From a virus, in the IMG/VR virus record IMGVR_UViG_3300030109_003668, positions 1-32,712 of that record: a stretch of DNA of 32,712 nucleotides. The stretch is one strand, 5' to 3'. Position numbers and translations under genes: made by a program. Each line of letters opens with the position of its first letter. Positions within the stretch are counted from its first letter, which is position 1. The notes under the pieces were generated by a model. It saw nothing but the letters and a program-made list of their open reading frames with translations. It did not search any database and was not told the origin of the DNA. Shown in pieces: positions 1-32,712 of the stretch.

Positions 1-1348
1 TGGAGTAAATACAAATATTGCACCAACAAACAAAAGACAGGTTAGAATTCAATGGCAAATCACACCAGATGCAAGTTCAGCAAATACTGCTTACCAAGTT
101 ATAATCCACAATTCTTATGACAACACACAGGAGTTTAATCAAAGTGGTTATACAGGTGCAAATTCTTGGACATTAATAAAAGGAAATCAAGGTGGTGCTC
201 CTTATAATCCAACAGGAAACAATATTGTAGCAAATGTCTTTTTTGCTGACTATTATCTAGAGGTAAGAGCAGATAGTCAATTTACATTTGCATTTCAAAT
301 GCAGGTAGATTATACAGGGCCATTTTATCAGATTCAAGGTGGGTTTGATCCTTGTGATAATTTATCTGGACCGAATCAAGATTCTAGATGTGCAACATAT
401 ATTCCTGCAACACCAAATGTAAACACAGAAGTTTCAGTTATACCTACCCAACAAATGCCAGAAATGAAAGTTTTAGATTTCTTAACAGGATTATTTAAGA
501 CATTTAATTTAACTGCATATTTTGAAGATGGTGTAACGATAGTAAAAACATTAGATGATTATTATGCTACATATAATACTTATGATTTAACTGAAAGAAC
601 ACACTCAGAACAACACGAAGTGGCACAGGCATTGCCATTTAGTGATCTAGTCTTAAAGTTTCAAGAGCCAGTTGCTAAACTTGGGCAAAGGTTTGAGCAA
701 TTAAATAATAGACAATATGGCGAATTAAGGTATTTAGCAGATGCGAGTAAAAAAGGAAAATATAATGTAGAGAATCCATTTTCAACAATGATACAAGAAA
801 GATTGATAAATACTACGACAGGAAATTCTACAACAATACAATCAGGTACAATGGTTGATGATAACAACAATGCAGGGTTTGGTAAACCACTATTGTTTTA
901 TGGAATCTATAATGACAACGCAGGAAATATAAATATAAATTGGATAAATGGACTAAGACCAGATCCTGTAACTGATCAGCCACAAGTAGGAACTAGAACT
1001 CCATTTAACAAATATTGGATGGCAGGTGTGAGCAATGAATTGGCTTCTGTAAATACACCTCCTACTATTAATTTGACTTATGGATCTGAGGTAAACACTT
1101 TTTGGCTTACTGATTATGGTGGAAACAACAATTCTTTATTCCAGAATTATTATCAGAATTATATTGTAAACGCTTTTGATAGTAGAAATAGACTTTATTC
1201 ATTTAAAGTTAAACTAAGTATTGATCAATTGTTAAACTTAAAGTTAAATGACAGAATAATTATAAGCAATAGGCAGTATAAAATAAACAAGATTAAAATC
1301 AATATGACAACAGGGGAAAGTGATCTAGAACTATTAAACGAATTTTAA
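1..1348 (+). CDS. Tail/baseplate structural protein, 3' part (continues from 31808)
   Basis: This is the C-terminal part of a large virion protein whose N-terminal part is at 31808-32712. Base 1 is the third base of a codon split by the window ends (AA + T = Asn), and the frame from base 2 to the stop at 1346-1348 is open without interruption. Joined, the protein is about 750 residues. The first in-frame ATG inside the window is at 299, but translated sequence before it has normal protein character (for example RQVRIQWQITPD), so 299 is not the start. It is rich in Asn, Thr and Tyr, as many tail proteins are, and has no motif I recognise. It lies just before the tape measure gene, which suggests a tail tip or baseplate role. 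The function is inferred from context only. Confidence 0.75.
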   Translation, partial: GVNTNIAPTNKRQVRIQWQITPDASSANTAYQVIIHNSYDNTQEFNQSGYTGANSWTLIKGNQGGAPYNPTGNNIVANVFFADYYLEVRADSQFTFAFQMQVDYTGPFYQIQGGFDPCDNLSGPNQDSRCATYIPATPNVNTEVSVIPTQQMPEMKVLDFLTGLFKTFNLTAYFEDGVTIVKTLDDYYATYNTYDLTERTHSEQHEVAQALPFSDLVLKFQEPVAKLGQRFEQLNNRQYGELRYLADASKKGKYNVENPFSTMIQERLINTTTGNSTTIQSGTMVDDNNNAGFGKPLLFYGIYNDNAGNININWINGLRPDPVTDQPQVGTRTPFNKYWMAGVSNELASVNTPPTINLTYGSEVNTFWLTDYGGNNNSLFQNYYQNYIVNAFDSRNRLYSFKVKLSIDQLLNLKLNDRIIISNRQYKINKIKINMTTGESDLELLNEF

Positions 1349-1491
1349 TGATAAAGAATATAATTGAGTGTTTAAAACTAACAGACAAAGAAGATAAAAG
1401 CGAGGTAATTAGTATGGCAAAAGGCAAGTATCAATATCCAAAAGGTTGGAAAGATTTGCCTAGAGCATTTGATGTAATAAAAGAAAAATAA
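1348..1491 (+). CDS. Small hypothetical protein, 47 aa
   Basis: The ATG overlaps the stop of the upstream tail gene (TAATG), and the stop lies one base before the tape measure ATG, so it sits tightly inside the tail operon. The product is short and basic; the C-terminal half reads MAKGKYQYPKGWKDLPRAF. An internal ATG at residue 23 could be an alternative start. I see no known domain. Its place directly before the tape measure suggests a minor tail or assembly role, but this is only positional. Confidence 0.6.
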   Translation: MIKNIIECLKLTDKEDKSEVISMAKGKYQYPKGWKDLPRAFDVIKEK

Positions 1492-1492
1492 T

Positions 1493-3457
1493 ATGGCACA
1501 AGAAACTACAATAAAACTAGATGCAGATGTTAAAGATGCTATTAAGTCAGTTAAGGATCTGACTAAACAAGTAGAGGATTTACAAAAAGCACAAGAGGAG
1601 CAGTCAAAAAAACATTTGGAAGAAATCCAAAAGATTAATGATGCTCAAAAAAAACAAACAGGAATATTAGCAAAAGTAAAAGCAGGTACAAGTGCAGTTG
1701 GATTAGCAATGAAAGCCGTTCCAATTACTATTGTAGTTAAAATGTTATCAGCATTATGGAATAAGTTAAAAGAAAATCAAGAGGTTATGGACACAATCTC
1801 TGATGTTATGAATGCAGTAGGTATAGTCTTAGGCGATATAGCAACTGCTTTAAAATCGACATTTGATAGAGTTAGTGAAGCAACAGGTGGATTTGATGCT
1901 TTAGGTAAAGTATTAGGTGGAGCATTTTCTGTTGCATTAAATTCTCTAGTGTTAGTAATTCAAGGTGTTACTTGGGGTGTTAAACAATTAGAACTTGCTT
2001 GGAAAAATTGGTTTGGATCAGCAGAAGATGCCGATAAAGTAAGAGCCGAATTAGAACAATTGGAATCTGATATGGCTAAAACTACTGAAAAAATAGGGGA
2101 TAGTGCTAAACAAATTGGAGAGAATTTTATAGAAGCAGTATCGGAAGTTGGAACTGCTGCATCTGAAATGACTAAAACACTTACAGAAGAAATTGGAAAA
2201 GTAGATGCAAAAGCGGCTCTGGAAAGAGGTAAGCAATTAACTCAATTGAAAAAGAATTATGAAAGAGTTGCATTAGAGCAATCAAGATTAATTGAGCAAT
2301 ATGATAAAGAAGCAGAAACGCAAAGACAATTAAGAGATGATACTTCACTTAGTATAGATGAAAGAATAAAAGCCAATGAAGAATTAGGTAAGGTATTAGC
2401 CAAACAATTAGAAGCAGAGGAAAATGCGGCAAAAGCACAAATTGAAAACCTCAAACAACAAATGGCATTAGAGGGCGAAAGTGAGGATCTTAAAAACAGA
2501 ATATATGCTGCAAATACTGAACTTCTTGCTATCCAAGCGAAAGTTACAGGACAAGAATCTGAGCAACTTGTTAACACTAATAGTTTATTAGATGAGAAAA
2601 ATGCTTTAATCCAGACAGGTATTGATAGGGAACGAGAAAGAAATAAAGTTTTATCTGATGAAGCAATTGAAAACGAGCAATATGTTTTTGATCAAATAGA
2701 ATTAAAGAGAAAACAATTAGAGGATGAGAATAAAATAATTGAGGATGATATTGCTAGAAAACGAGAGTTATATGCAGAGGGAACACAGGCAAGAGTAGAT
2801 GCAGAACAAGATTATTTAGATCAAATTAATAATTTGGAAGTTTCACAAAGAGAATTAGATCAGCAATATGCAGATGAAATTGTTAGAATAGAAGATGAAA
2901 AACAAGCGGCAAAATACGCAACACTTGATGCAATAATTGGTATTGCAGATCAAGAATCAGCATTAGGAAAAGCGGCACTAATTGCTAAACAACTAATGGC
3001 GGCACAAGAACTATTAGTAGATATGGGAATATTGAAAAGTAAAGCAACAATGGCAATAGCAGATGCAAATCTAAAAGGTGTTAAATCGACAACCGATACT
3101 GCAAGTGGTTTAAATGCAACATTAGCACTTGGTTTTCCTGCGGCAATTCCGGGACTTATAGCATATGCAGCAAGTGCAGTAGGAATTGTAAAAGGTATAA
3201 TGACTGCTATAAAAGGAACAAAACAAGTAGCAGGATCATTAGGTGGTCAAGACAGAGGTGGTGGATCTAGTCCTGCTCCAACAACACCTGCTCCTATGAT
3301 ACCAGAAACTAATTTAATTGGGGGATCTGGAACGAATCAAATAGCAGAAGCATTAGCACAAAATCAAGAAACCCCTGTTCAAGCATATGTAGTATCAAAT
3401 AATGTTACTACTGCACAAAGTTTGGAAAGAAATATAGTAGATACAACAAGTTTGTAA
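1493..3457 (+). CDS. Tail tape measure protein
   Basis: At 654 aa this is the longest complete protein inside the window. Residues 15-55 and about 235-475 are rich in Glu, Lys, Gln and Leu with heptad spacing, predicting long coiled coils. Hydrophobic stretches occur near 60-85, 100-160 and 560-615 (the last is Ala/Gly/Ile rich). This mix of coiled coil and hydrophobic helices, in a tail operon downstream of the chaperone frameshift gene, is characteristic of tape measures, which set tail length and line the tube. Using the usual value of about 0.15 nm per residue, the tail would be near 100 nm, which fits a siphovirus. The ATG follows the preceding stop by one base. Confidence 0.85.
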   Translation: MAQETTIKLDADVKDAIKSVKDLTKQVEDLQKAQEEQSKKHLEEIQKINDAQKKQTGILAKVKAGTSAVGLAMKAVPITIVVKMLSALWNKLKENQEVMDTISDVMNAVGIVLGDIATALKSTFDRVSEATGGFDALGKVLGGAFSVALNSLVLVIQGVTWGVKQLELAWKNWFGSAEDADKVRAELEQLESDMAKTTEKIGDSAKQIGENFIEAVSEVGTAASEMTKTLTEEIGKVDAKAALERGKQLTQLKKNYERVALEQSRLIEQYDKEAETQRQLRDDTSLSIDERIKANEELGKVLAKQLEAEENAAKAQIENLKQQMALEGESEDLKNRIYAANTELLAIQAKVTGQESEQLVNTNSLLDEKNALIQTGIDRERERNKVLSDEAIENEQYVFDQIELKRKQLEDENKIIEDDIARKRELYAEGTQARVDAEQDYLDQINNLEVSQRELDQQYADEIVRIEDEKQAAKYATLDAIIGIADQESALGKAALIAKQLMAAQELLVDMGILKSKATMAIADANLKGVKSTTDTASGLNATLALGFPAAIPGLIAYAASAVGIVKGIMTAIKGTKQVAGSLGGQDRGGGSSPAPTTPAPMIPETNLIGGSGTNQIAEALAQNQETPVQAYVVSNNVTTAQSLERNIVDTTSL

Positions 3458-3464
3458 TATTAAT

Positions 3465-3474
3465 CGTTATATAA
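3465..3474 (+). promoter_or_regulatory. CGTTATAT motif, candidate late promoter element
   Basis: CGTTATATAA lies in the 30-base gap between the tape measure stop and the protease ATG. A TTTG ends ten bases upstream. The following bases up to the ATG (AATAAAGAAAGAATTATG) closely resemble those at the 28735 site (AATAAGAAACGAATTATG). Three other virion units carry the same motif. Promoter function is inferred. Confidence 0.5.
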
Positions 3475-3487
3475 TAAAGAAAGAATT

Positions 3488-4105
3488 ATGAGTTTAGATA
3501 TAGTTGAGTTATTTTTAGAAGAAGATGATATAGATACAGGCGTAGATGCCATAAGTATTGTAGAATATCCTGCCATTGAATCTGATTTTGTGGCGTTAAA
3601 AGCCAAAGAGTTTAAATTCAAGGCAATTGATGAAGAAAAAAAGATCTTAATGGGGCCATTATTAATACCAAACAAACCTATTTACAGAAAAGATGAAGAT
3701 GATAAAGAATATTACATATATTTTTCAAAAGATACTGTGAATAAAGCATCTCAAATATTTTTAAAACAAGGAAAACAAAATAATAGTACATTAGAACACC
3801 AAAAAAAGATATTTGGTCTTAGTTTAGTTGAGAGTTGGATTGTTGAAGATCCTAAAATGGATAAATCTAGAAAATATGGATTAGATGTACCAGAGGGAAC
3901 TTGGATGGGATCTGTAAAAGTTGATAATGATGATGTTTGGAACGATTTTGTAAAAACAGGTAAAGTAAAAGGTTTCAGTATAGAGGGATATTTTGCTGAC
4001 AGAGCATCAAGATCTAATTTTACTAAAATGTCAGAAGAAGAAATAGCAATGGACACTTTAAAAAAGATATACGATATGTTAAACGATAGAAAAAATGTCA
4101 AATAA
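3488..4105 (+). CDS. Prohead protease, XkdF / peptidase S78-like
   Basis: The 205-aa protein matches the XkdF-like putative phage serine protease pattern: a conserved N-terminal VEYPAIES segment (25-32), the core ILMGPLLIPNKPIYRKD (53-69), a His in TLEHQ (H104), ESWIVEDP (115-122), and a Ser in VKGFSIEGYF (S164). H104 and S164 are the likely catalytic pair. Such proteases mature the scaffold and major capsid protein during head assembly. The scaffold and capsid genes follow directly, which supports the call. The start is the only good ATG after the tape measure stop. The last 11 bases overlap the next gene. Confidence 0.85.
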   Translation: MSLDIVELFLEEDDIDTGVDAISIVEYPAIESDFVALKAKEFKFKAIDEEKKILMGPLLIPNKPIYRKDEDDKEYYIYFSKDTVNKASQIFLKQGKQNNSTLEHQKKIFGLSLVESWIVEDPKMDKSRKYGLDVPEGTWMGSVKVDNDDVWNDFVKTGKVKGFSIEGYFADRASRSNFTKMSEEEIAMDTLKKIYDMLNDRKNVK

Positions 4106-4507: not shown

Positions 4508-4530
4508 ACGCCCACACCTTTTATTTTTTG

Positions 4531-4540: not shown

Positions 4541-4569
4541 TTAATTATTAACATTATAAAAATTATTTT

Positions 4570-5328: not shown

Positions 5329-5335
5329 AAAAAAA

Positions 5336-15890: not shown

Positions 15891-16136
15891 ATGGATTATA
15901 GTAACAACAAATATAGGATAGAATCTGACAAAGTAATGGGTTATAAGTCGTATAGTAAAAAACGAAAAATTGATCAATTACTATTTTTAAATGCTGATCA
16001 GTATTGTAATTTAGGATCAGATTCAACAAAAACTGATCGATTAATAGCAGAAGCAAATAGTAGATATATTTACAAATTGATAAAAAGTCTAGATTATAAT
16101 CTGGGATTTATGCTATTAAAATATCGTGAAGAATAA
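15891..16136 (+). CDS. Hypothetical early protein, 81 aa
   Basis: First gene after the iterons. The protein is basic at the N-terminus (MGYKSYSKKRKIDQLLF) and helical, with LNADQYCNLGSDSTKTDR and a C-terminal ANSRYIYKLIKSLDYNLG. I have a recollection of similar LNADQYxNLGSDST proteins in marine flavobacterial phages, without function. Being next to the repeat array it could act there, for instance as a binding protein, but no HTH is clear. Confidence 0.65.
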   Translation: MDYSNNKYRIESDKVMGYKSYSKKRKIDQLLFLNADQYCNLGSDSTKTDRLIAEANSRYIYKLIKSLDYNLGFMLLKYREE

Positions 16137-16527
16137 AAAAAGATCAAGAAAAAGTTTAGTAAAAAAATTAGACAAGGTCTTTAGCGAATACATTAGGCGC
16201 AGACATTCAGTCGCCGATCTTTCAGAATGTGTAACTTGTGGTAAAATTGAGAAATGGCAAAAACTTCAATGTGGCCATTTTATGTCTAGGAAAAATTATT
16301 CAACGAGGTGGGATGAAAAAAATTGCCAAGTCCAATGTGCAGGTTGCAATGTCTTCCGATATGGTGAGCAATATAAATTTGGTCTTTGGTTAGATGCTGA
16401 GTTTGGCGAGGGATCAGCTGAAGAATTATTAAGAAAATCAAAAGAAATAATACATTTAGATAATTTTGATCTTATGGTGTTAATTGAAAATTATGAGAAA
16501 AAAATTATAGATTTAGATAAAGAATAA
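16126..16527 (+). CDS. NinG/Rap-like recombination nuclease
   Basis: The 133-aa protein has the zinc pattern of the lambda NinG family: CVTCG (C35, C38), LQCGHFMSR (C49, H51), the N of DEKNCQVQC (66), and QCAGCN (C71, C74). NinG/Rap is a structure-specific nuclease acting on recombination junctions. The core is preceded by a basic N-terminus (KNKKRSRKSLVKKLD). The start is GTG at 16126, overlapping the upstream stop by 11 bases. It is followed by a strong terminator. Confidence 0.82.
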   Translation: MKNKKRSRKSLVKKLDKVFSEYIRRRHSVADLSECVTCGKIEKWQKLQCGHFMSRKNYSTRWDEKNCQVQCAGCNVFRYGEQYKFGLWLDAEFGEGSAEELLRKSKEIIHLDNFDLMVLIENYEKKIIDLDKE

Positions 16528-19151: not shown

Positions 19152-19432
19152 ATAAATATTTGCATTACCTTAATAAAGAGTATTTTAAAGAAATAGGTTA
19201 TGTGAAAATTGAAAGCAAAGTAAATAATTATGCAATGGATGAATTAGATAAAAAAGATTGGGAAATTTTTAGAGCAGGTGTTGAGAATAAAATCAGCAGA
19301 GAAGAAGTTAAAATGATTTCTAAACTTCACGCAAAGTATTTTAATCATAAATATAAAGTGCCTTGTTCTTGTTCACCCAAATTAATACAAGGTTGGATTG
19401 AACAATTAAACGACTTGTATGTCAAAAATTAG
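19148..19432 (+). CDS. Hypothetical early protein, 94 aa
   Basis: Mainly helical, with an acidic-basic middle (DELDKKDWEIFRAGVENKIS) and a C-terminal half that contains YKVPCSCSPKLIQGWIEQLN. The VPCxCSP-xxxxWIxxLN pattern is conserved in small proteins of related phages, in my memory, and may bind metal. Overlaps the start by four bases and the next gene by 14. No function assigned. Confidence 0.65.
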   Translation: MNKYLHYLNKEYFKEIGYVKIESKVNNYAMDELDKKDWEIFRAGVENKISREEVKMISKLHAKYFNHKYKVPCSCSPKLIQGWIEQLNDLYVKN

Positions 19433-19841
19433 TGTTACAAAAAAATTAGAAAGAGCAGTAATTTTAATTCTAAATGGATTTGATGAGTGGGATCTTAAAC
19501 CTACCGAAGATGAATTTTCTTGTTATGATGCAATAGGCATTACTCCCAAAGGCAGAAAATGTGTAGTCGAATTTAAATTTCGGAAAAAGTATTATGAAAC
19601 TAAAATGTTAGAAGTCAAGAAATATAATTGCATAATGAAGATGCCAGATGATTATGTTAAATTGTATTTTGTTGCAGATCCAGAGGGAACTTATATATTT
19701 TGGTTAGATGGAATTAAAGAGTTTAAAAGCATAAAAAAGTATTGTCCTAAAACTACCTATTGGAATGATAAGAAACAAGAAAAAGATGTCTATCTATTGC
19801 CAGAAGAACTTGCTAGTTATAAATTTAAAATAGATAATTAA
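19419..19841 (+). CDS. PD-(D/E)XK nuclease-like protein, 140 aa
   Basis: The core reads YDAIGITPKGRKCVVEFKFR, with D37, E51 and K53 in the spacing of the PD-(D/E)XK nuclease motif (D-x13-E-x-K), followed by a helix and strand (YVKLYFVADPEGTYIFWL). Such proteins cleave DNA or resolve branched structures; Holliday junction resolvase-like and restriction-like members are known. It closes the helicase/sigma unit and is followed by promoter P2. Substrate unknown. Confidence 0.6.
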   Translation: MSKISVTKKLERAVILILNGFDEWDLKPTEDEFSCYDAIGITPKGRKCVVEFKFRKKYYETKMLEVKKYNCIMKMPDDYVKLYFVADPEGTYIFWLDGIKEFKSIKKYCPKTTYWNDKKQEKDVYLLPEELASYKFKIDN

Positions 19842-20413: not shown

Positions 20414-20898
20414 AAACGACAGGAGTATTTTATTATCCACCCTTAATAAACGAACAAGCACTTTATGTAGGTGGAATGCGTGATATTACAAATGCGTATA
20501 TTTGTGCAGTAAATCCAGAATTTGCTCGACCAAATTTACAAGTAGATCAATTGGGTTGTAAATGTGAATTAATTGCACAATATTTTTTCTGGAGTCATAA
20601 GTATAAATATAATGCAGGACAAATGTTAGGGGGTAGGCCTATGCAAGATTATGATATACAGGTAAATGCAATGAAGATTGATGTCAAAGGAATATGGAGT
20701 TATGGTTTCAATGCTAGAGTAAATTATAAGGCACACAATAAAGATAAAAATGTTACTCATTATATGTTTATTAGGCCAGATAGTGAGGATCTTATGTGTG
20801 ATGTAGCACAATGGTGGTTGTATTCACACGAAGAAGTAGATCAATGGGAAGTAAAAGAATTAAAATACACTAAAGCATATCAAAAAGAATTATTATGA
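20410..20898 (+). CDS. PD-(D/E)XK nuclease-like protein, 162 aa
   Basis: After an N-terminal part (YYPPLINEQALYVGGMRDIT) there is a helix with GCKCELIAQYFF (E53), then QDYDIQVNAMKIDVKGIW, where D91 and K93 form the D-x-K of the PD-(D/E)XK motif and D80 or D82 may be the first Asp. The following RVNYKAHNKDKNVTHYMFIR resembles the substrate strand of restriction-like folds. Likely an endonuclease in phage replication or recombination. It is directly upstream of the RecE-like gene (ATGA overlap). Confidence 0.6.
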   Translation: MKTTGVFYYPPLINEQALYVGGMRDITNAYICAVNPEFARPNLQVDQLGCKCELIAQYFFWSHKYKYNAGQMLGGRPMQDYDIQVNAMKIDVKGIWSYGFNARVNYKAHNKDKNVTHYMFIRPDSEDLMCDVAQWWLYSHEEVDQWEVKELKYTKAYQKELL

Positions 20899-21707
20899 AG
20901 ATTAAATTATTTGACAATAGAGAACACTTGGTTGATCCACTTGTAAAGAGAATGTACAATGACACCTTTTATTATGGGGAATTGAGTAAATTAGCATTAT
21001 CCTCTAGCAGTATTAAATTGCTATTAGAATCGCCAAAAAAATTTTATTATGTGCAAAGATATGGACAGACAACAGAAACACAGGCAATGCGTGATGGCAG
21101 ATTATTGCATACATTAATTTTAGAGCCAGACAAATTTGATAACTTACATTTTGTTGATGTGGCTAGTAAAAATTCAAAAGCATATAAAGAAGCCAAAAAA
21201 AATTATGGCGAAGTTTATACTAGAGTAGAGAAATTTACTGCTGAAAGATTAGCCGATGCGTTTCTAAGAAACGAAAAAGCAATAAGTTATTTAAAAGGTT
21301 GTGAATTTGAAGTGCCTATTATTGACAATGTTCTTGGCTATCCATTTAGAGGGAAAGCAGATGTTATTGGACAGAATAAAATTGCTGACATAAAAACAAC
21401 AACAGACATTAAAGGATTTAAATATAGTGCATTGAAATATGGATATGATGTACAAGCATATTTATATTGTCAATTATTTGGAATGCACTTTTTAGACTTC
21501 ACTTTTATTGTCTTAGATAAAGGATCACTAGATATTGGGATCTTTGAAATTACTGAGGAATTTTATGACTTAGGAAAAGAAAAAGTGGTAAAAGCATTAG
21601 AGGTTTATGAGGAATATTTTGCAGGTAAAGATATTATGAATGATGATTTTTCTGATAAACTTGATAATTATTATATTGAACAAAAATTAGATTATGAGAA
21701 AAATTGA
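20895..21707 (+). CDS. RecE/exonuclease VIII-like 5'-3' exonuclease
   Basis: The 270-aa protein has LALSSSSIKLLLESPKKFYY (34-53) and GRLLHTLILEPDKF (68-81) with H72, as in RecE/YqaJ-type nucleases, then PFRGKADVIG (D156), KIADIKTTTD (D165, K167) and YGYDVQAYLYCQLFG (Q187), the full PD-(D/E)XK active site plus the QxxxY motif. It would resect double-stranded DNA to give 3' overhangs for the ERF annealing protein encoded at 27595. The two genes are separated by about 6 kb, unlike the adjacent pairs usual in phages. Confidence 0.82.
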   Translation: MKIKLFDNREHLVDPLVKRMYNDTFYYGELSKLALSSSSIKLLLESPKKFYYVQRYGQTTETQAMRDGRLLHTLILEPDKFDNLHFVDVASKNSKAYKEAKKNYGEVYTRVEKFTAERLADAFLRNEKAISYLKGCEFEVPIIDNVLGYPFRGKADVIGQNKIADIKTTTDIKGFKYSALKYGYDVQAYLYCQLFGMHFLDFTFIVLDKGSLDIGIFEITEEFYDLGKEKVVKALEVYEEYFAGKDIMNDDFSDKLDNYYIEQKLDYEKN

Positions 21708-22108: not shown

Positions 22109-22357
22109 ATGGGATATAATAATTTTGACAAAATCCACCGAGTTTTAAAAGAGTGGTACAACGATGATCAGATCAAAGAAATTTGGAAACGAATAAAAGC
22201 ATTTGATCACGAAGAACTAGAAAAAAGAAAACTATTTAAACAAATACAAAATGAGCAAGAAGAAAGTAAAAATATCAAGCGTAAAAGCAAATCCAAAAAA
22301 TCCAAGAGTAATAAAGGATCTGATGTATCAGAAACTTCTGCACTCGATAAAGAGTAA
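22109..22357 (+). CDS. Hypothetical protein, 82 aa, Lys/Ser-rich tail
   Basis: Residues 1-48 are helical and charged (KIHRVLKEWYNDDQIKEIWK). From residue 49 the protein is an unstructured KNIKRKSKSKKSKSNK tail, and here it overlaps the ParB-like gene by 107 bases in another frame. The tail may be just what the A-rich overlap encodes. The first half looks like a true gene, with A-rich start context after the DnaA-like stop. Role unknown. Confidence 0.55.
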   Translation: MGYNNFDKIHRVLKEWYNDDQIKEIWKRIKAFDHEELEKRKLFKQIQNEQEESKNIKRKSKSKKSKSNKGSDVSETSALDKE

Positions 22358-22874
22358 AACTTATATGCACGAAGCCAGACCATTAATTGTTGATGAAAAC
22401 AATGTGGTTTTAGGTGGAAATATGAGATTAAAAGCATTTACTGAATTGGGTTATAAAGAAGTTTGGGTAGATGATATGAAAGATTGGTCAGAGGAACAGA
22501 AACAAGAATTTGTAATTGCAGACAATGTGAACTTTGGGGAGTGGGATTATGATTTATTGGCTAACCAATATGATGTAGTAGATCTTGATACTATGGGTGT
22601 TGAACTTGATCCGAATATGTTTGGGGTAGATGATGATGATTCAGTCAAGGATGCAGAAAATGTTAAGTTTAATGATTACACTATTTATTTTGCTAATGAA
22701 GAACAAATGGATATTTGGTATGGCTTTATGAAAAAGTTAAAAAATAAATTTAAGGATCACGAGAATATTTCTAGCAGAATATTAATGTATATTGCAGAAG
22801 TTTATGATGAAAACAAAATGAGTGAATCTGAATTAGTATTAAAGTTTGTAGAACAAGAAGTAGATGGCGAGTAA
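22251..22874 (+). CDS. ParB-like (ParB/Srx N-terminal domain) protein
   Basis: Residues 5-100 match the ParB-like nuclease domain: KISSVKANPKNPRVIKDLMY, HEARPLIVDENNVVLGGNMR (GGNMRLKA is the conserved GE/GxxR motif) and EVWVDDMKDWSEEQKQEFVI, ADNVNFGEWDYDLLA. The C-terminal half is acidic (DDDDSVKD) with a helical end. Such phage proteins often lie beside PAPS-reductase-like genes, as here; E. coli IbrB is a related example. It may hydrolyse ATP/CTP or bind DNA; the role is unknown. Confidence 0.78.
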   Translation: MSKKKVKISSVKANPKNPRVIKDLMYQKLLHSIKSKTYMHEARPLIVDENNVVLGGNMRLKAFTELGYKEVWVDDMKDWSEEQKQEFVIADNVNFGEWDYDLLANQYDVVDLDTMGVELDPNMFGVDDDDSVKDAENVKFNDYTIYFANEEQMDIWYGFMKKLKNKFKDHENISSRILMYIAEVYDENKMSESELVLKFVEQEVDGE

Positions 22875-23982
22875 ATCAGATTTAATTTGGTTAGAAACAA
22901 ATGTATATCAAGAAGCATTAAAAAGAATTGATCAGATCTATAACTCACACGATGAAGTTTGGTTAAGTTTTAGTGGTGGTAAAGATAGTTTGGTTTGTCT
23001 TCATTTAATCTTGGAATATTTTGATCAAGAAAAAATTACAGATAAATTAAATGTGTTATTTAGGGATGAAGAAATTATTAATGGAAGCATCAGAAGATTT
23101 GTCCTTAGTTATATTGATCACCCTAGACTAAATTTTAGGTACTATGCCACACAATTAGATTCCGAAATATATATATTAGGCGAAAAGAAAACTTTAATTC
23201 AATGGGATGAAAATCGCAAATGGATTGTAGATAAGCCAGAATGTGCTATTACGCTAGATGGCGTACATAGTCAATTCACTTTTGATAAACACTTATTTGG
23301 TAAGTCTCAGAAAAGATGTTGTACGATTGTTGGACTTAGAGCCGATGAATCATTAATGAGATTTGCAGGAATAACTATGAGCAAGGTTTGTCATATGACT
23401 AGAAACCCAGATGTTAAAAATGTAACAATGGGAAAACCGATATATGATTGGAGTGAAAAAGATATATTTAAATATCTGCACGATAAAAAGATCGACTATT
23501 GTGAAATTTATGATCATCAAGTCTTCAATAAAGATCCATTAAGAGTTGCCTCAGCAGTACACGCAGAAGCGGCAAAGAGATTGTATAAAATTAAGACAAT
23601 AGATCCTGTGTTATATAATCAGATTATGGATGTTTTTCCAGAAGTTGATGTTCAAGCCAGATACTATAAAGATATGACTAAGGGCAATGCTAATAAAATT
23701 GCCTATTCTTATAGGGAAAAAGCAAATGGAGATCCTTGGAGTGCTATATATATGTATATAGATCAAGAAATAAAAGATCTTAAACAAAATAAAATGGCTA
23801 AAAGAAAAGTAGCCAGAACACAAATAACTAGAAGAAATGGAAAACGAGGTGCATTTGGTGGTTTTCCTGCGTTATATGTATTCAAGAAGATAATTGGTGG
23901 TGGTTATAAACGAAATATAATTCCGACACCAGATTTAAATGATGAGTATTTTGAATTTGAAAATAGAAGCAATAGAGCATAG
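22864..23982 (+). CDS. PAPS reductase-family (IbrA-like) protein
   Basis: The PP-loop SFSGGKDS (35-42) for ATP/PAPS binding lies in WLSFSGGKDSLVCLHLILEY. Further typical elements are LFRDEE (65-70), RCCTIVGLRADES (residues about 151-163), with a Cys pair, and KPIYDWSEKDIFKYLHDKKI. These match the phosphoadenosine phosphosulfate reductase superfamily, which includes IbrA and DndC. Length (372 aa) and lone occurrence with ParB-like genes on both sides fit the phage/IbrA subgroup. Biochemical role is not settled; nucleic acid modification is one possibility. Confidence 0.82.
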   Translation: MASKSDLIWLETNVYQEALKRIDQIYNSHDEVWLSFSGGKDSLVCLHLILEYFDQEKITDKLNVLFRDEEIINGSIRRFVLSYIDHPRLNFRYYATQLDSEIYILGEKKTLIQWDENRKWIVDKPECAITLDGVHSQFTFDKHLFGKSQKRCCTIVGLRADESLMRFAGITMSKVCHMTRNPDVKNVTMGKPIYDWSEKDIFKYLHDKKIDYCEIYDHQVFNKDPLRVASAVHAEAAKRLYKIKTIDPVLYNQIMDVFPEVDVQARYYKDMTKGNANKIAYSYREKANGDPWSAIYMYIDQEIKDLKQNKMAKRKVARTQITRRNGKRGAFGGFPALYVFKKIIGGGYKRNIIPTPDLNDEYFEFENRSNRA

Positions 23983-24340
23983 TCTAGTTTATAAGCATTT
24001 TGGATCTAAGATGCGTAAAGAACAAGTAGCAATAAAGAAGTTTGATGATAAGACTAAATACTTAGGTGCATTTGTTGATGATTATTTGGTTGGTTGTGTA
24101 GGTTGGCAAGAAATTAGTAAAGATCACATTAGATACAAAACAGACTATGTCGTTAATAACTTTAGAGGTAGAAAGATATACACAAATTTGTGGAAGTCTA
24201 GGGATTTAATTAACTTTAAGGAAAAAATAAGTGTTATATCTGCTTATTGTACTCCTCTATCTATTAGTATGTATATGAAATATGATTTCAAAATACAAAG
24301 TGTAAAAGGAAATATTAAATATCTAAAAAAAATTATATGA
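23939..24340 (+). CDS. GNAT-like acetyltransferase
   Basis: The 133-aa protein has the order of a GNAT fold: YLGAFVDDYLVGCVGWQEIS (strands 2-4), HIRYKTDYVVNNFRGRKIYT, where V-x-x-x-x-R-G-R/K corresponds to the acetyl-CoA pyrophosphate loop, and a late strand/helix ISAYCTPLSISMYMKYDF. It overlaps the PAPS-reductase-like gene by 44 bases in another frame, the sign of close coupling. The target is unknown; it could modify a protein, a small molecule or a base. Confidence 0.65.
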   Translation: MMSILNLKIEAIEHSLVYKHFGSKMRKEQVAIKKFDDKTKYLGAFVDDYLVGCVGWQEISKDHIRYKTDYVVNNFRGRKIYTNLWKSRDLINFKEKISVISAYCTPLSISMYMKYDFKIQSVKGNIKYLKKII

Positions 24341-24738
24341 GGGATTATAAGGGGTGGACAGGCAAACAAAGAAAAGAATCTCTCAAACTAACAAACAAAG
24401 CAAAAGAACTTGGTTGGATCAAATTGCCTACTTGTTGTAACAGGTGTGGACAAACTAAGGGAATATTGCAATTACACAATGAAGATTACTCAGTAACTTA
24501 TAATGTATTAAGGGATGCGTTAGATCGGTTTCCTGCACAGATTAAAAAGTCGGAAATGAAAAAAGTTGCTGAAGTTTTGGAAGAACTATGTTGGCGATGT
24601 CATATGATCCACCACTCTACGCATAGAAATCCACAGGCGTGTGAAAATTACTTTAACGAAATAAAAGCAGGTAAACAATATCCACCTGTTTATAGACATA
24701 ACTTTGATATATTAAAATATGAACACAACATTTGGTAA
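24337..24738 (+). CDS. HNH-type zinc endonuclease-like protein
   Basis: The protein has a zinc pair CCNRCG (C34, C37), LQLHNEDYS (H47), then LCWRCHMIHHS (C85, C88, H89, H92, H93), followed by CENYFNEI. The C-x2-C / LHxxDY / CxxCHxxxH order is that of HNH nucleases, in which the His of LH is catalytic. It overlaps the GNAT-like stop by four bases (ATGA) and the second ParB-like gene by 20. It could act in packaging or in the ParB/PAPS cassette. Confidence 0.7.
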   Translation: MRDYKGWTGKQRKESLKLTNKAKELGWIKLPTCCNRCGQTKGILQLHNEDYSVTYNVLRDALDRFPAQIKKSEMKKVAEVLEELCWRCHMIHHSTHRNPQACENYFNEIKAGKQYPPVYRHNFDILKYEHNIW

Positions 24739-25240
24739 TGATCCAATTAGTAAAGTTACTTGGATCAATGTAGATAATTTAAAGAGTAACAATTATAATC
24801 CTAATGTAGTATTGAATCAAGAACTTAAACTTCTAGAATTCAGTATTTTAAAGAATGGTTGGATTCAGCCAATTCTAGTAGGTAAAGACAATACGATAAT
24901 TGATGGTTATCACAGACATTTTTTGTCTAAACAAAGTAAGAAACTAAGAGAAAAATATAATGGACTTGTGCCTTGTGTTATTATGGACTTAGACACTCCA
25001 GAAAGAATGTTACTTACTATTAGGATCAATAGAGCCAAAGGAAATCACGTGGCAGTTTTAATGCACGAAATTGTAACAGAATTAATTAACGACTACGATT
25101 ATACAATAGAACAAATACGAGAGGGAATTGGATGTACAAAACAAGAAGTTGATCTTCTGTATAAAAAAGGCGTGTTTGATGCGTTAAATATAAAAGAGCA
25201 TAAATATAGTAAGGCGTGGAAGTCGCCTAAGTCAGTATGA
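24719..25240 (+). CDS. Second ParB-like (IbrB-like) protein
   Basis: Residues 13-115 match a ParB-like nuclease domain: KVTWINVDNLKSNNYNPNVV, LLEFSILKNGWIQPILVG, NTIIDGYHRHFLSKQ (the GYHR corresponds to the GERR motif) and VIMDLDTPERMLLTIRINRA. The C-terminal part has a helical element with IEQIREGIGCTKQEVDLLYK, an HTH. It resembles E. coli IbrB, which occurs with IbrA. It differs from the first ParB-like protein (22251), so they are not simple duplicates. Confidence 0.78.
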   Translation: MNTTFGNDPISKVTWINVDNLKSNNYNPNVVLNQELKLLEFSILKNGWIQPILVGKDNTIIDGYHRHFLSKQSKKLREKYNGLVPCVIMDLDTPERMLLTIRINRAKGNHVAVLMHEIVTELINDYDYTIEQIREGIGCTKQEVDLLYKKGVFDALNIKEHKYSKAWKSPKSV

Positions 25241-25410: not shown

Positions 25411-25724
25411 AAGCGTTAGAAAAATCTATGGGAATAGTGAGTCAAGCAACAAAAAAAGTTGGCATTGATAGAACGACACCATATAGATGGGCAAGAGAAG
25501 ATAAAGAATTCAAGCAGAAAGTAGAAGAAATACAAAATGTAGTATTAGACTTTGCTGAAACAAAATTATATAATTTAGTAGATAGTGGTAATCCAAGTGC
25601 CACTATTTTTCTGTTAAAGACTAAAGGTAAGCACAGAGGTTATGTGGAACGACAAGAAATAGTTGGAGCAGATGGAAAAGACATAGACATAAATATTGAA
25701 GTTATCCATACAAATAAAGACTAA
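25359..25724 (+). CDS. Terminase small subunit
   Basis: The 121-aa protein has an HTH in SQATKKVGIDRTTPYRWARE (residues 28-47), then a long helix (EFKQKVEEIQNVVLDFAETK), and NPSATIFLLKTKGKHRGYVE, the usual terminal motif of this TerS family. It recognises phage DNA and regulates the large subunit. It is directly upstream of, and overlapping, the large subunit gene by 29 bases, as expected. Confidence 0.85.
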   Translation: MGKEKTTKTTLKKEQFLEALEKSMGIVSQATKKVGIDRTTPYRWAREDKEFKQKVEEIQNVVLDFAETKLYNLVDSGNPSATIFLLKTKGKHRGYVERQEIVGADGKDIDINIEVIHTNKD

Positions 25725-26859
25725 TGTAGTTTTTGATCACTTAGAGCAAAGCGATAAAAGAATTATTATTGAGCAAGGTGGTACGAGATCTGGTAAAACA
25801 TATAATATTTTGCAATGGATCTTATTTAGATATTGTATGGAAAACAATAAAAAGATCATTACAATAACTAGAAAAAATGGTCCGGCATTAAGGGGATCTG
25901 CAATGAGAGATTTCTTTGAGATCTTGAACACTAAAGGACTTTATTCAGAAGACAACCATTTTAAAAGTATTAACGAGTATTTTTTTATGGGGAATATCAT
26001 TGAGTTTGTTAGTCTTGATGAGCCACAGAAAATTAGAGGTAGGAAACGAGATGTGCTTTTTATTAACGAGGGTAACGAATTAAATTGGGAAGATTTTTTT
26101 CAGTTAAACATAAGAACAAATGAAAGAATAATTTTAGACTTCAACCCCTCTGATGAATTTCATTGGATATATGACAAAGTTATACCTAGAGAAGATTCAG
26201 ACTTTTTCCAGACTACATATTTAGATAATCCATTTTTAGAAGAATCCTTAGTTAAAGAGATTGAAAGACTAAAGGGAACAGATGAGAACTATTGGCGTAT
26301 ATATGGCTTAGGCGAAAGAGGACAAAGCAGATCACTTGTATTTTCTTTTGGATTAGTAGATTCTATTCCAGAAACTGCTAAAAGAATTGGAATGGGTTTA
26401 GACTTTGGGTATAGCAATGATCCTACTGCTTTAGTAGAAACTTATATTGAGGGGGAAAATATGTACATAAACGAATTGTTATATAGAACAGAAATGACAA
26501 ACCAAGATATAGGCAGAACATTTGAATTGTTAAATTTAGATCGTAGAGATGAGATCTGGGCAGATTCCTCTGAGCCAAAATCAATTGCAGAAATACATAA
26601 AATGGGTTGGAATATTAAACCAACATTTAAAGGAGCAATTAACCTCAGCATTGATATGATGCGAAGATATAAGATCTTACTGACTAAAACTTCTGCAAAC
26701 TTAATTAAGGAATTTAAGAACTATAAATATATAGAAGATAAAAATGGAAATATTACTAACAGGCCATTTGATGCTTTTAATCACTCAATAGATGCCACAA
26801 GGTATAGTATTGTAAACAGACTATCTCGCCCCAATTATGGAACTTACGCAATTAGGTAA
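25696..26859 (+). CDS. Terminase large subunit
   Basis: The 387-aa packaging ATPase/nuclease. Walker A is GGTRSGKT (28-35), Walker B is VLFINE (120-125), and the RNase H-like nuclease Asp residues are D236 in MGLDFGYSNDPT, D290 in IWADSSEP and D366 in HSIDATRY. Start is TTG at 25696, upstream of the conserved QTKTNVVF-like opening; no ATG lies nearer in frame. The shortness agrees with PBSX-like terminases of Bacteroidetes phages. It is followed by promoter P3. Confidence 0.93.
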   Translation: MKLSIQIKTNVVFDHLEQSDKRIIIEQGGTRSGKTYNILQWILFRYCMENNKKIITITRKNGPALRGSAMRDFFEILNTKGLYSEDNHFKSINEYFFMGNIIEFVSLDEPQKIRGRKRDVLFINEGNELNWEDFFQLNIRTNERIILDFNPSDEFHWIYDKVIPREDSDFFQTTYLDNPFLEESLVKEIERLKGTDENYWRIYGLGERGQSRSLVFSFGLVDSIPETAKRIGMGLDFGYSNDPTALVETYIEGENMYINELLYRTEMTNQDIGRTFELLNLDRRDEIWADSSEPKSIAEIHKMGWNIKPTFKGAINLSIDMMRRYKILLTKTSANLIKEFKNYKYIEDKNGNITNRPFDAFNHSIDATRYSIVNRLSRPNYGTYAIR

Positions 26860-27580: not shown

Positions 27581-27594
27581 AAAGAAAAACAATT

Positions 27595-28515: not shown

Positions 28516-28646
28516 TGGAAAATCATTGGATATATAGCACACCCCCTTGGGATCAACCAGAAAATTCGTGTAGGCATTGTGAAAAACCGATGCACTCGGA
28601 TAAAGAGTATTGCAGTCATAACTGCTTTGAAGCCGATATGCTGTAA
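28515..28646 (+). CDS. Small zinc-finger-like protein, 43 aa
   Basis: MENHWIYSTPPWDQPENSCR followed by HCEKPMHSDKEYCSHNCFEA. C-x2-C and C-x3-C (CRHC, CSHNC) can bind one zinc. It is the last gene before a strong terminator. Function unknown. Confidence 0.6.
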   Translation: MENHWIYSTPPWDQPENSCRHCEKPMHSDKEYCSHNCFEADML

Positions 28647-28673
28647 TTATTGATTGTTTAGTTTTTTGTGATT

Positions 28674-28705
28674 AAAGAGTAAGAGAAATCTTGCTCTTTT
28701 TTTTT
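28674..28705 (+). terminator. Rho-independent terminator closing the early region
   Basis: AAAGAGTAAG (28674-28683) pairs with CTTGCTCTTT (28690-28699), 10 bp with one G-T, loop six bases, followed by a run of T. It separates early genes from the tail unit. Confidence 0.88.
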
Positions 28706-28734
28706 GATCTGATTTAGAATTGTTATAATTTCAG

Positions 28735-28744
28735 CGTTATATTA
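28735..28744 (+). promoter_or_regulatory. CGTTATAT motif, candidate late promoter element
   Basis: CGTTATATTA, with a TTG 12 bases upstream, lies 29 bases after the terminator T-run and before the tail chaperone ATG (28759). Together with the 3465 site it shows an extended common pattern up to the ATG. Confidence 0.5.
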
Positions 28745-28758
28745 ATAAGAAACGAATT

Positions 28759-29430
28759 ATGGCAGAAATAAAAATTATAGTTCCTACAAGTCTAGCAGAC
28801 ATAACATTAGATCAATATCAAAGATATTTAAGGATCATTGAAAACATAGAAGATGGAGAGATGAAAGAGAGTTTTATCTCAATGAAAATTCTAGAAGTAT
28901 TTTGTAATGTGCCTTATAGTGTTGCTAGTAAGTTTAAAGTAACTGACATTAACGAAATAGTGGCTAAGGTTACTCAGATACTAAATACGACAGAAGATCT
29001 CGTAAAACGCTTTAAAATAGGCGATACTGAATTTGGTTTCATTCCTAAACTTGATGATATGACTTTTGGGGAGTATATTGATTTAGATCAATTTCTAGGA
29101 GATTGGCAAAAAATGGAAAAAGCAATGGCAGTTTTATACAGGCCTATTGTTAAAAGTCAAGGTAAACTTTATGACATAAAAGAGTATGAGGGGGATTTGT
29201 ATCATAGTGCTATGAAAGGTATGCCACTAGATGCAGTATTTTCTAGCATTGTTTTTTTTTATCGTTTAGGGATCGACTTGTCGAAAACTATGATGAGATA
29301 TTTGGAAATGGATCAAGTGAAGGGGGATTCGGACTTAGAGAGGGTTTTAACAAAAAATGGGGATGGTATCACTCAGTTTACCACCTCACTCAAGGAGATA
29401 TTAGACGACTTAAACATATCACGACTATGA
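28759..29430 (+). CDS. Tail assembly chaperone (zero-frame product)
   Basis: The 223-aa, mostly helical protein (ITLDQYQRYLRIIENIEDGE at the N-terminus, MTFGEYIDLDQFLGDWQKME in the centre, VLYRP, FFYRLG) fits the G-type tail assembly chaperone of siphophages, which coats the tape measure before tube assembly. A slippery heptamer at 29352 would send some ribosomes into the -1 frame near residue 200, giving a 257-aa G-T product. The zero-frame C-terminus after the site is short (GDGITQFTTSLKEILDDLN). First gene behind the 28735 motif. Confidence 0.75.
   Translation: MAEIKIIVPTSLADITLDQYQRYLRIIENIEDGEMKESFISMKILEVFCNVPYSVASKFKVTDINEIVAKVTQILNTTEDLVKRFKIGDTEFGFIPKLDDMTFGEYIDLDQFLGDWQKMEKAMAVLYRPIVKSQGKLYDIKEYEGDLYHSAMKGMPLDAVFSSIVFFYRLGIDLSKTMMRYLEMDQVKGDSDLERVLTKNGDGITQFTTSLKEILDDLNISRL
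29352..29383 (+). promoter_or_regulatory. Programmed -1 ribosomal frameshift signal
   Basis: The slippery heptamer A AAA AAT (29352-29358) is in the right phase for the zero frame. TGGTA (29364-29368) and TACCA (29379-29383) can form a stem starting five bases downstream, extendable by GGGG with CCTC over a bulged A. The -1 frame is open to 29531. Confidence 0.7.
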
Positions 29431-29531
29431 ATTTACACACTTGTTTATTAGCATTAAGTTATGAAACTGAAAAGAATAAAGTAGAAAATCAAGAGCATAA
29501 AAATAGAATGAATAAAAACAGAATTAAATGA
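29358..29531 (+). CDS. Tail assembly chaperone frameshift extension (T-like)
   Basis: After a -1 slip at 29352-29358, translation continues from TGG at 29358 for 57 codons to TGA at 29529-29531. The extension reads WGWYHSVYHLTQGDIRRLKH, then ITTMNLHTCLLALSYETEKN and a polar end. The start WxWYxxVYxLxxGD, with MNLHTCLLALSYE behind it, is the pattern of the frameshift domain of tail chaperones, which recruits the tube protein. The ATG at 29427 lies in the same frame with an ATGA overlap; I regard it as internal. Confidence 0.7.
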   Translation, partial: WGWYHSVYHLTQGDIRRLKHITTMNLHTCLLALSYETEKNKVENQEHKNRMNKNRIK

Positions 29532-30019
29532 GCAATCAAGGATCAAGAGCATTTTACAATTTGATAAATAAGATACAGGAATTTCTGCAACAAAGTCCTG
29601 ATGTAAACACTATAACTTATGGCGACATTACGCAGATAGATTTAAATAAACAAGAAATGTACCCTTTGGCACATATTATGGTTAATAATGCGATACTTCA
29701 AGCAGGTGTAATTCAGTTTAGTTGTACAATTTTATGTATGGATGGTGTATGGAACAACAAGATAAATCCTGCAGATCAGACTTGGAATGAAACATTATAT
29801 GGAATAACAAATGAAATTGATGTTTTAAACACTCAGTTAAAAGTTGTGAACTTATTGAATCAAAGTATGTTAAGATATAATTTAAGATCAGATTTATTTG
29901 AGTTGGTTGGGGATGGATCTTGTGAGCCATTTCACGAAAGATTTGAAAATGATCTTGCAGGTTGGGCGTATAACTTTGATGTCTTTGTACAAAACGATAT
30001 TAATGTATGTCAAACTTAG
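29528..30019 (+). CDS. Probable tail terminator / neck protein, 163 aa
   Basis: Residues 1-40 are helical (AFYNLINKIQEFLQQSPDVN), then a strand layout (ITYGDITQIDLNKQEMYPLA, IQFSCTILCMDGVW) and a final NDLAGWAYNFDVFVQNDINV. The order, with ADQTWNETLY and FDVFVQND at the end, resembles tail terminator proteins of Bacteroidetes phages. Place between chaperone and HK97 gp10-like protein supports it. Overlaps the frameshift extension by four bases and the next gene by 13. Confidence 0.55.
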   Translation: MSNQGSRAFYNLINKIQEFLQQSPDVNTITYGDITQIDLNKQEMYPLAHIMVNNAILQAGVIQFSCTILCMDGVWNNKINPADQTWNETLYGITNEIDVLNTQLKVVNLLNQSMLRYNLRSDLFELVGDGSCEPFHERFENDLAGWAYNFDVFVQNDINVCQT

Positions 30020-30525
30020 ATTTTAAACATACTATTGCAGCAGTTGAAAAGGTTAGAGATCTTATTATTAAGGCATCTAAAACTAATCTGCAAAAACAGA
30101 AGAAAGATGTAAGTGGCACACTATCTGAATCTATACAACCAATTGAAACCCAAGTTGTCGATGGAGTTGTAGAAACAGGAATTAAGATGCTTCAATATGG
30201 GGAGTATGTAGATAAAGGAGTTTCTGGTATTAAGAAAAAATATAAAACACCTTATAAATACACAAATAAAATGCCACCTAGTCGAGCATTAGACAAGTGG
30301 GTAGTGCGTAAAGGAATAGCACCAAGAGATGAAAAAGGTAGATTTCTAAAAAGAAAATCTGTATTGTTTTTAATTGCTAGAGGAATATACAGAAATGGAA
30401 TGAAGCCAAGTTTATTTTTAACAAAACCATTTGAAAAATATAAGAAGTTACTAGCAGATGAAATTAATGAAGCATTTAATAAAGATGCACAAGAATATAT
30501 TGAAACAGAATTAAACAAAAAATAA
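30007..30525 (+). CDS. HK97 gp10-like tail completion protein
   Basis: The 172-aa protein has an N-terminal helix (TIAAVEKVRDLIIKASKTNL), SGTLSESIQPIETQVVDGVV, then MLQYGEYVDKGVSGIKKKYK, where YGEYVDKG is the conserved motif of the gp10 family, and a basic RALDKWVVRKGIAPRDEKGR. A helical C-terminus follows (FEKYKKLLADEINEAF). This family completes the head-tail joint. Gene order fits. Confidence 0.72.
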   Translation: MSNLDFKHTIAAVEKVRDLIIKASKTNLQKQKKDVSGTLSESIQPIETQVVDGVVETGIKMLQYGEYVDKGVSGIKKKYKTPYKYTNKMPPSRALDKWVVRKGIAPRDEKGRFLKRKSVLFLIARGIYRNGMKPSLFLTKPFEKYKKLLADEINEAFNKDAQEYIETELNKK

Positions 30526-31808
30526 TGGCAACACAAATACAATTAAGTAGATCTCCATATTATGTAAAACTTGTACCTACTACAACACCACAAGATATGG
30601 TTAGAAGTACGACAGAAGTTAGACTATGGCAAGGAGCAGAAACAATTCCAACAGGAACTGCTGATTTTACTATTAGCAAAACCCCTGTCGGTGGGGATCA
30701 GTTTATTACCTTAGAATTTAGTCAGTTGATAAACGATAAGTTTAACCAACAATATAATGGTTTGATATATACTGATGATGTATGGTTTTTGTATTATGAA
30801 TGTGAGTTTTTTGATAGTGTAGGTACACAAATAGGCACGAGTATCACACCCCCAGAACCATTAGTCTTTACACAGGGTTATGGAAATTTTAATCAAGGAG
30901 TAAATCCTTACTATGACACAGGCAATATTGTTACAGGAAATTCAATTAGTATGATGTCTAGTCAATTGTCTTTAAGACTTCCAGAGCCAGAAATTATGAC
31001 TATTCCTGTCTTAATTTGTAAAAATGAAACTGCAACTGTGGTTTGGTATAATGGAACTTTGGCAGAAGCAAAGGCAAATGTAGCATCAACAAAAACAAAA
31101 ATTGAAACTTATACAAATGGTGGACTTAGTGAGGAGTATATACATTATTTTAATAACCAGAATCCAAATTTAAATGTTCCTGCAGGACATAACACAAATG
31201 CTACTGATTATCAAATTTATGTAGAAATGGATCAAGCAGGTGTATATGAAGATAATTCAGTTTTTTGGTGTCCAGAAAATGATAATCCAAATACTGTGGT
31301 TAAGATCTCGTATAGTGGGGATCAAGCAAACTTAGGAACATACTATGAAATTAACTATCTAACGAAAGATAAATATGATCCTTATAAAATAACCTTTGTG
31401 AATAAATATGGTGCATTAGAAAGCATCTGGATGATGGGAGCATTTAAGGAATCATTAGCAGTTAAGAACGATCAATTTAAAAGAAATTTATTAGACAGAT
31501 CTGTACCGAGTTATAACACAGAAGCACACCAATATGTTACATTTGGGGATCAAGGAACGAAAAGTATTTCATTAAACACAGGGTGGATTCCAGAATCAAT
31601 GAATGTAACTTTACAAGAATTATTTTTAAGTCAAAAAATATGGCTTACTAATTATAACCCAGAGCCAAGTATATCAGCAAATGTTATAAATGAGCCAGTA
31701 ATTATTAAGAGTAAAAATTTAGAATTTAAAAGACACATTAATGATCGTATGATTAATTACAATTTACAATTCCAATATGCTTTTGATATGATAAACCAAG
31801 TAAGATAA
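30525..31808 (+). CDS. Tail structural protein, 427 aa
   Basis: ATG uses the last base of the previous stop (TAATG). N-terminus TQIQLSRSPYYVKLVPTTTP, then VWFLYYECEFFDSVGTQIGT. A Lys/Tyr-rich second half contains YYEINYLTKDKYDPYKITFV, NKYGALESIWMMGAFKES and NEPVIIKSKNLEFKRHINDR. NKYGALESI-x-x-G and NLQFQYAFD are, from memory, conserved in a Bacteroidetes phage tail protein of unknown exact place. All-beta. Next to the 750-aa protein, so a distal tail or tube-associated role is inferred. Confidence 0.65.
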   Translation: MATQIQLSRSPYYVKLVPTTTPQDMVRSTTEVRLWQGAETIPTGTADFTISKTPVGGDQFITLEFSQLINDKFNQQYNGLIYTDDVWFLYYECEFFDSVGTQIGTSITPPEPLVFTQGYGNFNQGVNPYYDTGNIVTGNSISMMSSQLSLRLPEPEIMTIPVLICKNETATVVWYNGTLAEAKANVASTKTKIETYTNGGLSEEYIHYFNNQNPNLNVPAGHNTNATDYQIYVEMDQAGVYEDNSVFWCPENDNPNTVVKISYSGDQANLGTYYEINYLTKDKYDPYKITFVNKYGALESIWMMGAFKESLAVKNDQFKRNLLDRSVPSYNTEAHQYVTFGDQGTKSISLNTGWIPESMNVTLQELFLSQKIWLTNYNPEPSISANVINEPVIIKSKNLEFKRHINDRMINYNLQFQYAFDMINQVR

Positions 31809-32712
31809 TGGCGTTAAATTTAGTTTTATATATTCAGTCTAATAGAAATGTAAGTCAGACAATGACTAAAGTGGATCTATACAAAGATGAGCAAATCTCT
31901 TTGACTAGAACGATACAAGATATTAGAGATATTGAAAAAGTTAGAACTGATTTTTCTCAACCTTTTACACTCCCTGCCTCAGCAGTAAATAATGGAGTTT
32001 TTGGAAGTTGGTATAATCCAGACATAAACCAATTTGATAGTAATTATAGAGCACCTGCATTATTAGAGTTAAATTACTTACCATTTAAAAAAGGATTTAT
32101 TACTCTGAATAAAGTTAAAATGAAGAATAATGAGCCAGAATTCTATAATGTTACATTTTTAGGGGAAACCGTAGATTTAAAAAATGTTATATCTGAGGAT
32201 CAATTAGAACAATTGAGTTGGTTAGCAAGTCCAGAATTTCAATTTATAAACAACAACAATAATGCGAAAAATGGATTAAATAATGGAATTACTCTTGATG
32301 ATCCACAAGGTAATACTTGGGATAATGCTTTTATATACCCATTGATAGGGCATTCAGTTGATTTTTATTATAAGAGTGCTATTGCACAAACTTCGCCTTG
32401 GACTAATTTATGGACAAGTCAATCTCACACGCAAGATGGAGTATTTTATAATGACTTGAAACCTGCAATTAGAGTTGATTTAATTTTAAAAGCAATAGAG
32501 CAACAATATAATTTGACATTTAGCAATGATTTCTTTTATACCTCTGCAACAGAAAATCTTTATTTATGGATGAGTAGAAATAAAGGACAAATGACAGGTG
32601 GTGGTACTTTGGAAATGAGAAGTCAAACAGGAGTGCAATGTACAGGTTGTGGTAGTTTTAGTGATTGTAATTATTTTAGTGGAAACGAATTAGCGGGACC
32701 GGACTTCTGTAA
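31808..32712 (+). CDS. Tail/baseplate structural protein, 5' part (continues at base 1)
   Basis: ATG overlaps the previous stop (TAATG). The frame stays open to the window end and continues without a stop into bases 1-1348, giving about 750 aa in all. The N-terminal part reads VDLYKDEQISLTRTIQDIRD, FSQPFTLPASAVNNGVFG, FKKGFITLNKVKMKNNEPEF and YNVTFLGETVDLKN, the pattern of a large tail protein common in Bacteroidetes phages. A Cys-rich stretch (VQCTGCGSFSDC) ends just before the junction. Likely tail tip or baseplate; not proven. Confidence 0.72.
   Translation, partial: MALNLVLYIQSNRNVSQTMTKVDLYKDEQISLTRTIQDIRDIEKVRTDFSQPFTLPASAVNNGVFGSWYNPDINQFDSNYRAPALLELNYLPFKKGFITLNKVKMKNNEPEFYNVTFLGETVDLKNVISEDQLEQLSWLASPEFQFINNNNNAKNGLNNGITLDDPQGNTWDNAFIYPLIGHSVDFYYKSAIAQTSPWTNLWTSQSHTQDGVFYNDLKPAIRVDLILKAIEQQYNLTFSNDFFYTSATENLYLWMSRNKGQMTGGGTLEMRSQTGVQCTGCGSFSDCNYFSGNELAGPDFC

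Follow-up and report, generated by a model that had tools for sequence, protein, structure and literature searches.

Elimination of CATG and AGCT from an uncultured phage genome and the recurrent avoidance of short words among its relatives: a probable footprint of host restriction

The window analysed here is the whole stretch of 32,712 nucleotides of the virus record IMGVR_UViG_3300030109_003668 (positions 1 to 32,712; GC content 31.3%), and a DNA similarity search of it against phage records returned no match. Four genes on its forward strand matter for what follows. A gene for a NinG-like (HNH) junction endonuclease lies at 16126..16527 (Pfam PF05766 NinG, E 8e-14; phrog_5034, E 8e-30), and a shared replication/recombination block includes an Exonuclease VIII-like gene at 20895..21707 (phrog_412, E 1e-36) and a gene at 19419..19841 for a small, family-conserved protein in which a D...E-x-K (PD-(D/E)XK-like) pattern was seen by eye. 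The large terminase subunit is encoded at 25696..26859, assigned by tblastn to annotated terminases, and served as the family marker and the basis of the tree. A cassette at 22251-25240 contains ParB-like, PAPS-reductase/DndC-like, small-protein, HNH-like and second ParB-like genes; its PAPS-reductase gene was found in only two of 19 other family genomes. Searches for D12, N6/N4 and C5 DNA methyltransferases (PF02086, PF01555, PF00145) found none in the window, which speaks against protection of the phage DNA by its own methyltransferase of these three families, and such genes are rare in the phage family as well.

The sequence-only reading had claimed that CATG is absent from the window and that AGCT occurs once, in the ninG-like gene, and exact counting bore this out: CATG is found nowhere across 1..32712 and AGCT only at 16416-16419. 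A zero-order model expects 87.5 occurrences of each word. The Markov-corrected count that the same reading had suggested gives second-order expectations of 76.8 for CATG and 57.0 for AGCT, with z values of -10.5 and -10.2, the two lowest among all 256 tetramers. A codon-shuffle null, in which synonymous codons are permuted within the genome while the proteins and codon usage are preserved, expects 45.6 CATG (z -9.5) and 60-63 AGCT (z -9.4 at 60.1). GATC, TGCA, CTAG and GTAC, which had also been called common, are indeed plentiful (190, 173, 94 and 64). Both words (CATG 0/46-77, AGCT 1/57-63) count as eliminated under the definition of PMC6286503, an observed/expected ratio <0.1 at an expectation >15, the expectations being taken here from the Markov and codon-shuffle models and not from the Burge method of that study. 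The genome is AT-rich and strand-biased, and one could blame the absences on skewed base, codon or dinucleotide usage, on chance or on a faulty assembly. We give this explanation practically no chance, as had been argued for base content on the strength of equally composed words that are common; both nulls, with their 46-77 expected CATG and 57-63 expected AGCT, reject base and codon bias. A contig 99.5% identical to the window and deposited under another IMG record (L003) has the same word absences, as do many contigs from other metagenome records, and a library cut at CATG could not have yielded a 32-kb contig.

The codon-context tables show how the words are avoided. Histidine before G is encoded by CAC 25 times and never by CAT, whereas before any other base CAT (87) prevails over CAC (36). 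None of the 201 ATG codons is preceded by a codon ending in C, compared with 7.8% elsewhere. Alanine after an A-ending codon is GCT in one of 192 cases, against 110 of 337 elsewhere, and serine before T is AGT 44 times and AGC never. Each of the three codon phases of CATG is expected 15-16 times and observed zero times. Synonymous codons are thus picked across codon borders so as to avoid the words, and the codon shuffle together with these tables shows that the depletion lies in the DNA itself and owes nothing to the proteins or to codon usage. Other depleted words for which each strand offers a sufficient expectation are scarce whichever way they are read (GAACC 5/21 and GGTTC 1/11; CCTGA 5/19 and TCAGG 1/21; GTCAC 0/8 and GTGAC 0/7). 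Taken with the context-dependent codon choice, this means that selection works on duplex DNA and not on protein or mRNA.

CATG and AGCT are the extremes of a broader pattern, since ACGT (4 vs 31-34 expected) and many non-palindromic words are also depleted in the window. Under the codon-shuffle null the depleted words include ACTGG (3/40), GTCAC (0/16), AGCCT (0/18), CASTG (1/24), CCTGA (6/40), CGTC/GACG (2/40) and ACGG/CCGT (4/39). Some of the depleted words coincide with known type II specificities (ACTGG, CASTG, GTSAC).

A terminase search found 494 relatives in viral contigs and, with further seeds, led to a fetched set of 152 distinct loci. CATG is eliminated in 103 of the 134 relatives that could be rated; the corresponding figures are 23/123 for AGCT, 45/133 for GATC, 41/138 for CTAG and 28/129 for CCAG. 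Parsimony on the terminase tree requires at least 8 changes for CATG, 12 for AGCT, 14 for CTAG, 15 for CCAG and 16 for GATC (10 for GGCC, on 57 rows), so avoidance of AGCT, GATC, CTAG and CCAG, like that of GGTGA, has been gained or lost more often than that of CATG. Several lineages that sit amid CATG-free relatives on the tree have CATG at or near its normal frequency (L130/L133, L182, L028/L032/L041, and partly L040); these are clear reversals, in which the word was regained. In the window's own group (the window, L003, L002 and L004) CATG is absent from all members, while AGCT is avoided in the window, L003 and L002 and not in L004 (27 vs 25 expected), ACGT is avoided in the window and L003 and not in L002 or L004, and GATC, in excess in the window, is absent from L002 and L004. 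As separate observations, in L063 and L013 a dozen or more words of 4-5 bp are eliminated together, including CCGC, GGTGA, GAATC, CCATC and CATCC, and the non-palindromic CCAG/CTGG is gone or nearly so from L018 (0/50), L038 (0/99) and L068 (1/133). To our knowledge, CCAG/CTGG matches no known enzyme with a 4-bp site.

Close pairs show the same turnover in single words. L040 and L048, which align over 26 kb at 83% identity, share no CATG, with 27 sites found only in L040 and none only in L048, and for GATC the figures are 0, 31 and 0, while the control word GTAC is shared at 29 sites and occurs at 27 only in L040 and at 33 only in L048. This is the pattern that word-specific purging, or release from it, would leave. 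The comparison of the window with L002, given in the same order, yields 0/27/0 for GATC and 1/0/11 for ACGT. The tree and the close pairs together show that single words come under avoidance or escape it from one near relative to the next, while other words stay unaffected.

The small gene at 19419-19841 raises the possibility that host DNA is destroyed by a nuclease of CATG specificity encoded by the phage, whose own genome is kept free of the site as self-protection. The comparison took in 14 CATG-free genomes, of which 13 have the gene and the other is a fragment, and the replication/recombination block to which it belongs is present in CATG-free genomes and missing from the CATG-normal L038, L064 and L068. 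However, this correlation comes down in essence to a single ancient division of the tree. The gene is not limited to phages lacking CATG: it is present in the CATG-normal L133 (46 vs 37 expected; 60% identity) and L182 (41 vs 38; 40% identity), and L040 has the entire block together with 33 CATG. Graded states (7/19 in L045, 17/24 in L040) do not fit an all-or-none self-cutter, and in other members AGCT, GATC, CTAG and further words behave like CATG. Because CATG-normal relatives share the gene and several lineages regained the word, 19419-19841 was rejected as a phage-borne CATG nuclease, and the explanation as a whole appears highly improbable.

That a phage devoid of a recognisable methyltransferase has come to avoid the sites of orthodox type II restriction enzymes is, with considerable confidence, the best explanation of the pattern. 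Host enzymes that recognise CATG and AGCT would cut unmodified phage DNA on its entry; as the window phage has no recognisable DNA methyltransferase, every unmodified site would be a liability at each entry, and genomes that lose sites, mostly by synonymous point mutation, would survive, leading to no CATG and one AGCT. The selection by restriction proposed in the sequence-only reading is supported by a depletion that is complete and word-specific, runs through synonymous codons on both strands and in every codon phase, and shifts one word at a time among near relatives, with reversals. We infer the restriction enzyme as the agent and CATG and AGCT as its specificities. The lack of CATG would be accounted for by a specificity such as that of NlaIII or of the Ureaplasma parvum system UpaP162 (PMC6191088); these enzymes are proposed here by specificity alone.

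The second proposal of the sequence-only reading, that the absences can predict a host, stands only in part. The signature predicts a restriction repertoire and not a host, because CATG avoidance is common to most of a diverse family, AGCT avoidance being narrower; CATG avoidance is seen in two Flavobacterium psychrophilum phages as well. The host of the window phage would belong to the Bacteroidota, probably to the Flavobacteriia. Two of five terminase matches in genome contigs were in Flavobacteriaceae MAG contigs, which is weak evidence on the host because phage contigs are often mis-binned. Elimination of sites is commoner in non-temperate phages, and a terminase of high identity was found in one of 301 Flavobacteriaceae genomes, on a MAG contig. 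The relative L085, which lies in a MAG, has CATG 0, GATC 0 and CCAG 0. The other contigs of that MAG show no such avoidance, so that it was not retained as a host with matching avoidance; the MAG need not avoid the words, as it may methylate them, and the link is neither supported nor excluded. The search of candidate hosts for CATG and AGCT methyltransferases that had also been suggested identified no restriction enzyme or methyltransferase of either specificity in the Flavobacteriaceae searched. Several of their D12 methyltransferase loci, judged by eye and by NCBIfam, resemble GATC (Dam/DpnII-type) systems, and none could be assigned to CATG.

Among 20 Flavobacteriaceae chromosome samples, one had a CATG ratio of 0.03 in the first stretch taken. 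This chromosome (G057, contig C1; 2.61 Mb, ~40% GC; loci L276, L306-L310 and L327-L366) contains, over 914 kb, 34 CATG vs 1,660 expected. GATC (285/2,178), GGCC (160/1,381) and CTAG (337/1,401) are depleted too, whereas AGCT, GTAC and TGCA are normal, and the depleted words are among those turning over in the phage family; this chromosome-level depletion counts in favour of the restriction reading. A Dam-family methyltransferase gene of G057 stands beside a PD-(D/E)XK nuclease-like gene and a second methyltransferase gene, an arrangement that fits a putative GATC system; no CATG enzyme is evident among the methyltransferases found with the three families.

The last result bears on the idea that a host defence other than classical restriction-modification acts on short motifs. 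Examples would be phosphorothioate-dependent and BREX-like systems, pressure from CRISPR PAMs, and orphan nucleases that have no methyltransferase. A chromosome nearly free of CATG whose methyltransferases are not evidently CATG enzymes is in favour of such a defence, and several avoided words are non-palindromic, with no enzyme known to us that matches them (e.g., CCAG, absent from L018, L038 and L068). A CRISPR-linked depletion of motifs has been reported (PMC4246573). Nevertheless, both CATG and AGCT are palindromes of 4 bp for which type II prototypes are known, and complete elimination has been described for the sites of orthodox type II systems and almost never for those of types I, IIG and III (PMC6286503); we regard a non-classical defence as quite improbable. 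It is also unlikely, though worth naming, that the hosts of the family share a conserved CATG-directed defence instead of ordinary, rapidly exchanged restriction-modification, with the result that CATG avoidance is nearly fixed; a nuclease without a methyltransferase, which a CATG-free chromosome such as G057 might tolerate, would be an example.

Under the favoured reading, avoidance of type II sites, the window resembles the prokaryotic dsDNA viruses of PMC6286503, about a tenth of whose genomes show complete or almost complete site elimination: it belongs to a dsDNA phage that has lost 4-bp type II palindromes (observed/expected 0 and 0.02) by sequence change rather than by methylation. Its family, diverse and uncultured, differs from those cases in that most members have eliminated CATG and that in some (L063, L013) more than a dozen words of 4-5 bp are gone. 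Another parallel is offered by marine pelagiphages, half of which are depleted in GANTC, a depletion that likewise tracks phage phylogeny (PMC9516812); there, in other phages, one methylated motif is depleted, whereas here several words are completely eliminated. Our literature search found no paper on CATG elimination in phages. Escape by loss of restriction sites is already known; the constancy of CATG avoidance across a family and the CATG-poor chromosome are unusual. Such avoidance is usually seen phage by phage, and here its footprints extend across a whole uncultured family in which many restriction specificities can be read, CATG hardly varying and others coming and going along short branches. 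Restriction history thereby becomes a trait that can be measured and tested, for host inference and for the timing of host shifts. That a chromosome from the likely host family has almost no CATG suggests an unusually strong and long-lasting CATG-specific pressure there.

Isolate phages of Flavobacterium psychrophilum provide a comparison. FPSV-S2 and Fpv8 are like the window in having almost no CATG (2 vs 65 and 1 vs 65), and they avoid CGCG (0 vs 33-34), CTAG (0) and GGTGA (2 vs 39-40) as well; unlike it, they are 42.7 kb long, are annotated with methyltransferase genes and have a terminase only ~36% identical. A strain of this species typically has ~10 methyltransferases, and the systems known from the species recognise words of 4-5 bp, CGCG among them (PMC11837570); the loss of CGCG from its phages is in favour of the restriction reading. 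Against that reading, CATG has not been eliminated from six of the seven flavobacterial phage isolates examined. Apart from the F. psychrophilum phages, strong avoidance of CATG is missing from five of six flavobacterial phages, and mumin9-3 has a reduced count (10/32).

The excess of GATC in the window (190 vs 106-119 expected) runs through all codon phases, is strongest in the GGATC and AGATC contexts, and recurs in L013, L039 and L063, whereas other relatives show none. Very-short-patch repair is not supported as its source, as GATA is as depleted as GATT; the excess is possibly a compensation for the forbidden words. Enrichment is also seen in the F. psychrophilum phages (L265, L274, L275; FPSV-S2, Fpv8), where CCGG and GCSGC are about two-fold enriched even though both are sites of known systems of this host species, and avoidance is therefore not automatic.
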